NCBI GenBank assembly: GCA_001805645.1
Contig: MHGQ01000025.1
Location: forward strand, 1-46,864
DNA length: 46,864 nucleotides
Origin: Omnitrophica WOR_2 bacterium RIFCSPHIGHO2_02_FULL_50_17
GTDB taxonomy: Bacteria; Omnitrophota; Gorgyraeia; Zapsychrales; Zapsychraceae
Direction of reading: 5' to 3'
Below the pieces are notes generated by a model, which did no database searches, was not told where the DNA came from, and worked only from the letters and a program-made list of their open reading frames with translations. Position 1 is the stretch's first letter, and the number at the start of each line of letters is the position of its first letter. Both the position numbers and the translations under genes were made by a program. This document shows, piece by piece, positions 12,245 through 46,864 of the stretch.

Positions 12245-12508
12245 CTAATGTCTTTCAAGCAATTCTGAATCACCCTTAATTAAAGCCAGTTTCTCCCTTC
12301 TCCTGCACCCTTTAATCCGGGCTTCGCGCTTGAGGGCGGCTGATTTAGTCGAACACTTTTGCGAGTAGACGAGTTTATCGGCCTTAAAACTGCGAGTAAA
12401 TTTCCCGCCCTTGCCTTGCCGGTGCTCCTCAAGCCGTCTTTTGAGATCATTCGTAATCCCTGTGTATAAATCTTTATTGCGGCATTCTAAAATATACACA
12501 TACCACAT
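12245..12508 (-). CDS. Small GIY-YIG nuclease-fold protein (UPF0213/YhbQ-like)
   Basis: An 87-residue single-domain protein. The GIY-YIG signature is WYVYIL...LYTGIT, followed by the catalytic-Arg region DLKRRLEEH and a downstream Glu in KREARIKG. Small GIY-YIG proteins of this type are common stand-alone proteins of unknown physiological role and are sometimes mobile. AAGGA lies 6 bases before the ATG. It sits 24 bp after the antiporter gene. A second, only distantly similar GIY-YIG protein is encoded at 46517-46780. Confidence 0.8.
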   Translation of the reverse strand: MWYVYILECRNKDLYTGITNDLKRRLEEHRQGKGGKFTRSFKADKLVYSQKCSTKSAALKREARIKGCRRREKLALIKGDSELLERH

Positions 12509-13874: not shown

Positions 13875-13898
13875 TGCTTAATTTTTATTTATAAATAC

Positions 13899-13969
13899 TG
13901 CCCCGCTTGGACTCGAACCAAGACACTGAGATCCAGAGTCTCATGTGCTACCAATTACACCACAGGGCA
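13899..13969 (-). tRNA. tRNA-Gln (CTG)
   Basis: A 71-nt cloverleaf on the minus strand. Acceptor strands TGCCCTG and CGGGGCA pair. The anticodon arm TGAGA-CTCTGGA-TCTCA gives anticodon CTG. The T-arm has GGTTCGAGTCC. CCA is not encoded. It lies 5 bp after the small lipoprotein gene and downstream of gltX, so it may be processed from that message. Confidence 0.93.
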
Positions 13970-13974
13970 AAAAA

Positions 13975-43827: not shown

Positions 43828-46275
43828 GTGACCAATTTGGCATCGCAAGAAAAAATCATCCCTGTGTATATCGAAGAGGAGATGAAGAATTCTTATCTTT
43901 CTTATTCGATGAGCGTCATCGTGGGCCGCGCCCTGCCGGATGTGCGCGATGGCCTTAAGCCCGTTCACCGCCGCGTCCTTTATGCCATGAAGGAGCTGGG
44001 TTTAGAGCACAGCAAGTCTTATAAGAAAAGTGCGCGCATTGTCGGCGAGGTCTTGGGCAAGTACCATCCCCACGGGGATATGGCCGTGTATGATACCTTG
44101 GTGCGCATGGCCCAGGATTTTTCCCTGCGGTATCCACTGGTGGACGGCCAGGGCAATTTCGGCTCGATTGACGGCGATGCCCCGGCCGCGATGCGCTATA
44201 CCGAGGTCCGGATGGCCGCCATTACCGACGAGGTTTTAGCGGATATCGACAAAGAGACCGTGGATTTCTCTCCCAATTTTGACGCAACCTTAAGCGAGCC
44301 CGTGCTTATGCCGGCGGCCTTGCCGAATTTATTGATCAACGGCTCCAGCGGGATTGCCGTTGGCATGGCCACTAACATCCCCCCGCATAATTTAGCCGAG
44401 GCGGTCGAGGCAACCGTCTATCTTATTGACAACCCGGAGGCCTCCATTAAAGAGCTTAACAAAATTGTCAAAGGGCCGGATTTCCCGACGGGAGGGATTA
44501 TCTGCGGCCGCGAAGGGATTGTCGAGGCCTATACAACCGGCCGGGGCAAGCTCAGCGTGAGGGCCAAGGCCAGCATTGAGCGGCAAAAGGGAAGCAAGGA
44601 CAGTATCATCATCACAGAGATTCCCTATCAGGTCAACAAGGCCAACTTGATTAGCAGCATGGCGGATCTTGTCCAGGACAAAAAGGTGGAAGGGATTACG
44701 GATATTCGTGATGAGTCGGACAAGGACGGTATCCGGGTTGTCCTGGAACTGCGGCGGGACGTCGAGCCCCAGATCGTCTTAAATTATCTTTACAAGCATA
44801 CCCAGATGGAGACGACCTTCGGCATCATCAATCTGGCCCTCGTCAACAACAGCCCGAAGGTTTTGAACCTTAAACAACTCCTTTCTTATTTTATTGATCA
44901 CCGCCGGCTGATTGTCCGCCGGAGGACGCAGTTTGACCTAGACCGGGCGCTGAAAAGGGCGCATATCTTGGAGGGCCTGCGCATCGCGATTCAGGCCATT
45001 AATCAGATTATTAAGACTATTCGCGAATCCAAGAGCACCCCGGAGGCCAAGACCGCCTTGATGGACAACTTTCATCTTTCAGAGATACAGGCCCAGGCTA
45101 TTTTGGAGATGCAGCTGCAGCGCCTCACCGCCCTGGAGCGGGATAAAATCGAATCCGAATACAAAGCCCTGTTAAAAGATATCGAGAATTATAAGGCTAT
45201 CCTCGCCTCGGAGAAAAAGATTGACGAGATCATCAAGAACGAATTGCTGGACATTAAGAAGAAATATGGCGACGAACGGCGCACCGAAATTACCGGCAAG
45301 GCCGAGGAGATTGAGATCGAGGATTTAATTGCCGAAGAGGATATGGCGATCACCATCAGCAATGCCGGCTATGTGAAGCGCCTCGCGGCTTCGGCTTACC
45401 GCAAGCAGAAGCGGGGCGGACGGGGTGTTACGGCCATGACCATCCAAGAAGAGGATTTTGTGCGGCATCTCTTTGTGGCCTCTTCCAAAGATTACTTATT
45501 GGTTTTCTCGAGCAAGGGCATCGTGCGATGGCTTAAGGTGTATGAGATCCCCGTCGCCTCCCGGGAGGCGAAAGGGAAAAATATCGTTAATTTACTCTCA
45601 ATGGAAAAGGACGAACAGATCAGCGCCATCGTGGCGGTCAAAGAATTCTTAGACGAATTATCTTTGGTGATGACGACGGCCCAAGGGTGCGTGAAGAAGG
45701 CAAAATTGTCGGCATTCAGCAACCCCAGGAAAGCAGGTATTGTGGGCATTACCCTGGATAAGGGCGACCGCCTTATCGCTACGGCCTTAAGTAACGGGAA
45801 AAACGAGATACTCTTGGCGACGAAAAACGGGAAGTCTCTGCGGTTTTCTGAGAAGCAAATCCGGGACATGGGCCGTGCGGCCAAGGGGGTTCGCGGCATC
45901 CGTTTAGCCTCCGGGGACGAGGTGGTGAGCATGATAGTCTTCCCGCCGGACATCGGGAAGACCGAGAGCACGCTTTTAACCGTTACGTCTTTAGGGTTTG
46001 CCAAGAGGTCTGATTTTAACGATTACCGTCTTCAGTCCCGCGGCGGCAAGGGGATTATTAACGTGAAGGTTACCGGGCGCAATGGGCATGTGGCCGGCGT
46101 ATTCCCTGTGACGCCCGAAGACGAAATTATGACGGCAACGAAAAATGGTATGGTCGTCCGCTGTTCTCCTGAGGAGATCCGCCAAACAGGCCGCAGCACC
46201 CAGGGTGTGCGGCTTGTTAATCTTAAAGGGGGGGATGTCGTCATCTCTGTTGCCAGCGTTGCGGCAAAAGAATGA
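43828..46275 (+). CDS. gyrA: DNA gyrase subunit A
   Basis: An 815-residue subunit. The catalytic Tyr is Tyr124 (AMRYTEVRM). The CTD has the GyrA box QKRGGRG, which separates it from ParC. The quinolone-determining loop reads [10 protein letters not shown], with Met85 at the E. coli Ser83 position and Asp retained at the Asp87 position. The start is GTG 43828 behind AAAGGGGAAG, 12 bp after gyrB. The next 160 bp hold no clear gene. Confidence 0.96.
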
Positions 46276-46414
46276 CACTTCCTTAGCATCCGTGGCGCCC
46301 AATCCCAGGGGGGCTCGAAATTCCCCTTGACCCGACGACAAACTTTATTATAATAAACAAAACCAAAAATTTGCGCAGAGATTCTTCGGGCCTACAAAAA
46401 TAAGTCCTCAGAAT

Positions 46415-46439
46415 CGAATTTTTACTTCGTAAAAATTCG
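46415..46439. repeat. AT-rich perfect hairpin touching the tRNA-Glu remnant
   Basis: CGAATTTTTAC-TTC-GTAAAAATTCG: 11-bp perfect stem and 3-nt loop. Its last base is the first base of the tRNA-Glu-like remnant. It may terminate gyrA transcription or belong to the element described at 46436-46839. Confidence 0.7.
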
Positions 46440-46500
46440 ACCCCATCGTCTAGCCTGGTCAGGACACCCCGCCTTTCGGCGGGGCAAGCACGGGTTCAAA
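46439..46500 (+). pseudogene. Truncated tRNA-Glu-like remnant
   Basis: The first 29 bases after 46439 (acceptor 5' strand, D-arm, A26) are identical to the intact tRNA-Glu at 46766. The anticodon arm is replaced by a tight palindrome CCCCGCC-TTTC-GGCGGGG that keeps TTTC but not a 7-nt loop. GCACGGGTTCAAA of the T-arm is present, then identity stops (GCAAGGGG instead of TCCCGTTGGGG), so the T-stem 3' strand and acceptor 3' strand are lost. It cannot fold as a tRNA. Confidence 0.8.
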
Positions 46501-46516
46501 GCAAGGGGAATGGGAA

Positions 46517-46780
46517 GTGTTTTTTGTTTATATTTTACAAAGTCAAAAAGATCGAAAATATTATGTTGGCCATACAAGCGATATCGATCGCAGAATGAAA
46601 GATCATAACCGTGGCAAATCGAAAAGCGTTCGCAATAGAGGCCCATTTCAATTGATATACAAAGAGCCTTTTGCCTCAAGGCTCGATGCCATTGAGCGAG
46701 AAAAGCAAATAAAAAGATATAAAAGCGGAGATGCCTTCAAAAGGCTGATCCAACAAAACACTTTCGACCCCATCGTCTAG
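46517..46780 (+). CDS. GIY-YIG nuclease-fold protein ending inside tRNA-Glu
   Basis: An 87-residue single-domain protein: MFFVYILQSQKDRKYYVGHTSD (GIY...YIG equivalents VYI and YVG), the Arg region DIDRRMKDHN, KSVRNRGPFQLIY and the Glu helix DAIEREKQIKRYKSG. The start is GTG 46517 with AAGGGG 8 bases upstream, just after the tRNA remnant. The last residues TFDPIV and the TAG stop are supplied by tRNA-Glu bases 46763-46780. The function of this family is unproven. The position between two tRNA-Glu copies suggests a small mobile unit. Confidence 0.82.
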   Translation: MFFVYILQSQKDRKYYVGHTSDIDRRMKDHNRGKSKSVRNRGPFQLIYKEPFASRLDAIEREKQIKRYKSGDAFKRLIQQNTFDPIV

Positions 46781-46839
46781 CCTGGTCAGGACACAAGCTT
46801 TTCAAGCTTGCAGCACGGGTTCAAATCCCGTTGGGGTCG
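46766..46839 (+). tRNA. tRNA-Glu (TTC), CCA encoded
   Basis: A 74-nt cloverleaf: acceptor GACCCCA with TGGGGTC and G73; D-arm GTCT ... AGGAC; anticodon arm CAAGC-TTTTCAA-GCTTG gives TTC; T-arm ACGGGTTCAAATCCCGT. CCA follows at 46840-46842, unlike the four other tRNAs here. Its 5' part overlaps the 3' end of the GIY-YIG gene by 15 bp. Confidence 0.95.
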
Positions 46840-46864
46840 CCATTTAGCGCTGTCCCATTGCGGT

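Follow-up and report, generated by a model that had tools for sequence, protein, structure and literature searches.

Well-studied homing endonucleases carry a DNA-binding domain, and some of the group I introns that encode GIY-YIG homing endonucleases (e.g. I-TevI) occur in tRNA genes. Such introns are comparable with the locus described here in that a GIY-YIG gene lies inside a host gene, but they depend on a ribozyme and on splicing, whereas the present locus is without a ribozyme and its function would be kept by tRNA duplication. A closer counterpart is SegB of T-even phages, a free-standing GIY-YIG homing endonuclease that reportedly cuts within tRNA genes, is associated with tRNAs across phages and amplifies tandem tRNA-segB repeats, with microhomology between the 5′ end of the tRNA and the 3′ end of segB (PMC13096335). 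The cleavage motif reported for SegB is RAWTSGAAC (PMC13096335), which, by our own reading of the two sequences, is what the T-loop consensus of tRNAs, GTTCSAWTY, gives when reverse-complemented; the corresponding tRNA sequence of the locus studied here (GTTCAAATC) differs from the SegB motif at one position.

The present locus and SegB have in common a GIY-YIG nuclease gene located beside tRNA genes. SegB is, however, phage-borne and has no reported isotype preference, whereas the genes of the type described here are chromosomal, encode a single domain of ~87 aa, are faithful to a tRNA isotype and are accompanied by broken copies of the host tRNA. No description of chromosomal GIY-YIG/tRNA elements was found in the literature searched, most subscription journals being outside its scope, and tiny selfish DNAs of a type that enters essential tRNA genes yet spares a functional copy are apparently undescribed. 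To the features of known homing endonuclease genes, the present type would add fidelity to an isotype, duplication of the host tRNA and an occurrence on chromosomes across multiple phyla.

Organization of the gyrA-tRNA-Glu locus

The locus is situated at the end of the stretch of DNA that was analysed, referred to here as the window, which is a whole contig of 46,864 bases and ends 22 bases past the right tRNA, leaving any downstream 3′ fragment out of view. The tRNA-Glu site adjoins a conserved upstream gene, gyrA (43828–46275, + strand; 815-aa ORF). It is followed by a sigma-70-like promoter, TTGACC-16-TATAAT (46327–46354, +), which matches the consensus at 11 of 12 positions, lies upstream of the whole unit and is presumably the native tRNA-Glu promoter; TTGACC...TATAAT-like boxes are also present 5′ of tRNA-Glu in relatives without a GIY-YIG gene (e.g. 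L117 and L122). Two hairpins were recognized in the sequence that follows, GATTCTTCGGGC..CCTCAGAATC (46380–46415, +) and TCGAATTTTTAC / GTAAAAATTCGA (46414–46440, +), the former being of a kind that is also located directly 5′ of tRNA-Glu in relatives G007, G008, G029 and G019.

The next feature is a broken tRNA-Glu copy (46439–46500, +) that terminates in the T-loop at TTCAAA and in which the anticodon arm is replaced by the palindrome CCCCGCCTTTCGGCGGGG (46467–46484), a palindrome type with 19 occurrences in the 1.92-Mb genome versus two for a reversed control pattern. A ribosome-binding site, AAGGGGA (46503–46509, +), precedes a gene with a GTG start (46517–46780, +) that was assigned to a single-domain GIY-YIG nuclease of 87 aa on the basis of its ORF, Pfam match, invariant residues and predicted fold, and this is the only ORF between the broken and the intact tRNA-Glu copy. 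The intact tRNA-Glu(TTC) (46766–46842, +) represents the single intact match of ARAGORN and Rfam (46766–46842/46839), while the left copy received no tRNA score from either.

The initial annotation, which was made from the sequence alone, had described these junctions accurately. Its 32-bp direct repeat (left copy, 46436–46467, +; right copy, 46763–46794, +) is exact, at 100% identity, and comprises a 3-nt leader and tRNA nt 1–29, and its second T-arm match, AGCACGGGTTCAAA, is present twice (46487–46500 and 46812–46825). The break of the left tRNA at TTCAAA and the completeness of the right one agree with the scoring of the right copy only, and the ribosome-binding site of the GIY-YIG gene directly follows the break. 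The stop codon of this gene was likewise shown to be the TAG at nt 13–15 of the intact tRNA-Glu, the leader and nt 1–15 of this tRNA doubling as the codons for the last residues of the ORF (FDPIV) and its stop. The arrangement of broken tRNA, GIY-YIG gene and intact tRNA is far beyond chance, and the broken-tRNA structure of the window is also found at L007/L146 and L147.

Features of the GIY-YIG protein

The 87-aa protein was matched by Pfam to the GIY-YIG domain (PF01541, 3.5e-17), and this catalytic domain takes up all 87 aa, with no separate DNA-binding domain in the Pfam assignment or the predicted model. Residues Y5, Y16, G18, R26, H30, A58, E62 and K66 are invariant across 38 relatives. 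The AlphaFold model (mean pLDDT of 84.8, with a disordered tail at residues 84–87) showed a predicted fold that matches UPF0213 protein BH0048 (1zg2) and SLX1. The protein is a member of the GIY-YIG nuclease superfamily of the UPF0213-like type, with the conserved Tyr, Arg and Glu present. UPF0213 single-domain GIY-YIG proteins (BH0048, 1zg2; EF2693, 1ywl) are of the same size and fold and represent the best sequence and fold match, and no description of tRNA association or mobility of UPF0213 proteins was found in the literature searched. The structure-specific endonuclease SLX1 has the fold of the catalytic GIY-YIG domain in common with the window protein; it is a multi-domain protein that acts with its partner SLX4 in DNA repair and is not known to be encoded by a mobile gene.

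With regard to the features that define free-standing homing endonucleases, the endonuclease ORF is intergenic and outside any intron or intein, and Rfam scans returned no intron. Presence and absence at the insertion site were observed and horizontal spread is indicated by the comparisons given below, whereas a separate DNA-binding domain conferring long-site specificity is lacking.

Empty and filled sites in related genomes

The gyrA-tRNA-Glu site was compared across 30 relatives, 28 of which possess a tRNA-Glu after gyrA (inverted in one of these). Insert-free sites, for which the initial annotation had suggested a search, were found in 22 of the 30 relatives, where tRNA-Glu follows gyrA without a GIY-YIG gene. 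In six relatives the gap is occupied by a GIY-YIG gene or by what is left of one, namely a window-type gene (G000 and G003), another GIY-YIG type (G007, G008 and G029) or a 3′ remnant only (G032). The suggested alignment of empty and filled sites was clean for the same-genus pair G031 (empty) and G003 (filled), with little difference on either side: the two gyrA ends match almost completely and identity is 93% over the 312 bases that begin with the tRNA, the filled gap being ~366 bases longer. The defined gyrA-tRNA-Glu site is thereby seen to exhibit a presence/absence polymorphism.

At three further loci (L119, L139 and L145), tRNA-Glu fragments were observed without an adjoining window-type GIY-YIG gene; these may be remains of elements that have since disappeared, or derivatives that lack the gene. 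A different GIY-YIG lineage is located between gyrA and tRNA-Glu at L124, L128 and L145, followed by hairpins of the GATCCTTCGG..CAGGATC and AATTTTTACTTCGTAAAAATT types, both of which are also present upstream of the broken tRNA of the window.

Association of small GIY-YIG genes with tRNA genes

Small GIY-YIG genes were frequently located at ≤260 bp from an intact tRNA gene (103/230, as compared with ~1% expected). Within the window's order, 41 of 117 such genes were linked in this way, where ~1.3 were expected (p ~1e-49), and all tRNAs concerned were on the strand of the GIY-YIG gene (45/45). A second set of 113 genes, collected from the window's phylum and other phyla by similarity to the window protein, contained 62 linked genes, with 65 tRNAs on the same strand and none on the opposite strand; 62/113 is not a census, as this set is biased to relatives of a tRNA-linked gene, and one of its loci duplicates G003. 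Across both sets, 110 linked tRNAs were on the same strand and none on the opposite strand. The linked loci span 16 amino-acid types, and their hosts belong to Omnitrophota, Kiritimatiellia, Bacteroidetes, Patescibacteria, Terriglobia and Dehalococcoidales. Several GIY-YIG copies may be present in a single genome, decayed copies were observed (L137 and L013), and a tRNA link is absent from numerous lineages within this GIY-YIG family.

Broken tRNA pieces accompany many of these genes, with 5′ pieces at 50 and 3′ pieces at 21 of 96 linked loci; 5′ pieces were detected in 42 of 120 cases near a GIY-YIG gene versus 3 of 42 at tRNAs without such a gene (p=0.0003). The commonest layout, which is that of the window, consists of a 5′ fragment, the GIY-YIG gene and an intact tRNA. 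Other layouts are an intact tRNA followed by the GIY-YIG gene and a 3′ fragment (L045 and L065), and a 5′ fragment, GIY-YIG gene, intact tRNA and 3′ fragment (L002, L008, L184 and L206); in the latter, the GIY-YIG gene and a whole tRNA are therefore nested inside a broken tRNA. Fragment ends were located in the T-loop, the variable region or the anticodon loop, and a 3′ fragment, alone or together with a 5′ one, is left by some elements; the clustering of ends at the anticodon loop is partly due to hairpins inserted there. The T-loop, at which insertion was proposed in the initial annotation, is thus one of the break points, but it is not upheld as a single universal site. In many tRNA-Glu elements, the end of the ORF is formed by tRNA sequence (SPSSSLV, FDPIV or GPIV).

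Tandem arrays of GIY-YIG genes and tRNA fragments were observed at L155, L159 and L156, in Cyclobacteriaceae and relatives (tRNA-Asp and tRNA-Pro).

Origin of the broken tRNA copy and the proposed element

A 5′ fragment suitable for comparison was available at 36 loci, and was set against the host's own intact tRNA and against tRNAs of that isotype in every other family that carries the element. It was closer to the host's own tRNA at 30 of the 36 loci (four ties and two losses). Given this agreement with the tRNA of its own host, the broken copy would seem to have arisen by duplication of host tRNA at insertion, rather than as imported DNA, and as such appears analogous to a long target-site duplication or to the repair-born repeats of SegB; among close relatives, both tRNA copies could also have been transferred jointly. 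An imported element end with a foreign tRNA part is disfavoured by the same match, and the replacement 5′ tRNA part that the initial annotation assigned to the inserted unit is thus probably not carried by it; this is the principal point on which the interpretation departs from that annotation.

Taken as a whole, a minimal mobile element that targets tRNA genes, as had been suspected from the window, is well supported by empty and filled sites and by dozens of other GIY-YIG/tRNA junctions; neither two intact, diverged tRNA-Glu genes flanking the GIY-YIG gene nor an absence of such junctions elsewhere was seen. We consider it likely that the locus represents a single-domain, tRNA-targeting, homing-endonuclease-like selfish element that resides in the tRNA genes of one isotype, with phage SegB as its nearest counterpart. 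The nuclease would cut inside a tRNA gene, in the T-loop, variable region or anticodon arm, and the GIY-YIG gene would enter at the break in the sense direction, after which repair would duplicate part of the host tRNA, with a complete copy remaining alongside the broken one. The GIY-YIG gene, lying downstream of the tRNA promoter and ahead of the intact tRNA, would be readable from that promoter and would obtain its stop codon from the tRNA end, and the broken copy would later decay and collect hairpin repeats. We infer the tRNA-gene cleavage, the repair route, the co-transcription and the current activity of the element.

Several points weigh against such an element: a protein without a DNA-binding domain does not account for isotype specificity, the presumed target is kept in the intact tRNA and would be open to re-cutting, the break points are variable, the gene is short, with a gyrA comparison that extends over 249 bases, and many lineages of the family have no tRNA link. 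If the proposal is correct, the essential tRNA genes of many uncultivated bacteria would be repeatedly invaded by elements that are among the smallest selfish DNA elements (~325 bp, duplicated tRNA part included). Duplication, breakage and altered neighbourhoods of tRNA genes would thereby have a natural source, and the proposal would explain scattered tRNA fragments in such genomes and would extend the newly described link between phage SegB and tRNAs to bacterial chromosomes, with isotype specificity. It would also raise the question of how an 87-residue nuclease without a DNA-binding domain distinguishes one tRNA gene from another and yet is not lethal to its host.

Isotype fidelity and probable horizontal movement

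In a phylogenetic tree of the GIY-YIG genes, tRNA-linked genes were shown to cluster by isotype, and the best match from another family was associated with the same isotype in 38 of 95 cases (shuffled mean of 9.3, maximum of 23). Elements associated with tRNA-Glu are present in Omnitrophota, Bacteroidetes and Wolfebacteria. This fidelity could be mere synteny if each GIY-YIG gene had entered its tRNA locus anciently and had since been immobile, inherited vertically and lost many times. In agreement with such a history, the Glu elements of several families adjoin gyrA, and flanking genes are also common to the pairs L174/L175, L029/L088, L042/L227 and L001/L147; given the synteny of several same-isotype relatives, part of the isotype signal is due to vertical descent.

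An old and immobile insertion is nonetheless an improbable explanation of the whole, as it conflicts with the existence of non-syntenic same-isotype pairs, some of them across phyla, and with the divergence of the window gene from its nearest named relative, that of UBA10147 (Candidatus Omnitrophota; L146, which is the same as G003). The GIY-YIG DNA of the two is 80.7% identical over 249 bases (59% at third positions), as compared with 69.9% (44% at third positions) for gyrA of the same two genomes, and the genus-mates of UBA10147 are without the window-type gene. In the same-isotype pairs L184/L206, L192/L198, L149/L160 and L048/L237, homology is limited to the GIY-YIG gene, the tRNA and the fragments. 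Horizontal movement over vertical descent is favoured by these sequence comparisons, since a patchy, non-essential gene is closer than gyrA and since some non-syntenic relatives match only in the GIY-YIG gene, the tRNA and its pieces. As to carriage by a virus or plasmid, IMG/VR yielded no close relative that could be confirmed, and the matches among phage and plasmid records were weak.

Hairpins in broken tRNA copies

Paired hairpins (TCCCGCC..GGCGGGA TCCCGCC..GGCGGGA) were identified where the D-loop, anticodon loop and T-loop would lie in the broken tRNA-Glu of several families, and a 20-bp palindrome, CCTGCCTGCCGGCAGGCAGG, is present in the D-, anticodon or T-loop of broken tRNA copies of unrelated hosts (L015, L029 and L153). 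The broken copy of the window contains a single palindrome, whereas those of its relatives contain hairpin pairs. The paired inverted hairpins are REPIN-like and are located in 5′ and 3′ tRNA fragments at L184, L194, L206, L181, L183 and L259. REPINs and their associated RAYTs (PMC3116915) are comparable in that they comprise paired inverted hairpins, as inside the broken tRNA copies of the relatives, but they differ in that the nuclease is a tyrosine transposase (PMC3116915).

These hairpins may be bystander repeats that gather in DNA under no selection, or they may serve the GIY-YIG nuclease as substrates. The latter would be expected if the system were guided by structure, i.e. if an SLX1-like nuclease recognized DNA hairpins of tRNA genes and the same activity moved hairpin pairs into the loops of broken tRNAs. 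The positions of the paired hairpins in the broken tRNA-Glu copies are consistent with this, as is the presence of SLX1, which acts on branched DNA, among the nearest solved folds. However, hairpins also occur elsewhere in the genome, their link with the nuclease is one of position, and isotype fidelity suggests sequence recognition, so that we regard structural guidance as unlikely. The wider proposition of a general hairpin-loop-directed system, in which SLX1-like GIY-YIG nucleases recognize tRNA-gene stem-loops, insert with duplication of the host tRNA and mobilize paired hairpins into D-, anticodon- and T-loops as a GIY-YIG counterpart of REPIN/RAYT, is doubtful.

Other explanations

A host gene for tRNA maturation or repair, kept by tRNA genes for co-expression, would account for the constant strand, the proximity to tRNAs and the conserved catalytic residues, yet it is very unlikely in view of the patchy presence of the gene, the decayed (L137 and L013) and tandem (L156 and L159) copies, the isotype-specific lineages and the several copies per genome.

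Decay of the left copy of a tandem tRNA-Glu pair with an unrelated orphan gene in between, as entertained in the initial annotation, finds some encouragement in the dissimilarity of the left anticodon arm to the right one and in natural tRNA pairs (e.g. tRNA-Ser in L003), but is highly improbable, being contradicted by empty sites with a single tRNA-Glu in relatives; the retention of an orphan gene between such a pair likewise disagrees with these sites and with the recurrence of the same layout for many isotypes.

The scar of a tRNA-integrating island or group I intron is just as hard to credit: islands and introns alike make use of tRNA genes and may leave pieces of tRNA behind, but the 87-aa ORF stands alone between the two copies, and Rfam identified tRNA and no intron in the window and 17 related loci. 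A group I intron as such was rejected on account of the absence of a ribozyme core from these loci, where only tRNA was found by Rfam, and a tRNA-integrating genomic island is disfavoured in that the stretch from the tRNA fragment to the intact tRNA encodes the GIY-YIG ORF alone and no integrase.

A second small GIY-YIG gene was observed in the window (12302–12505, −), ~1.4 kb downstream of a tRNA-Gln (13897–13970, −) on the same strand, without a direct tRNA link.
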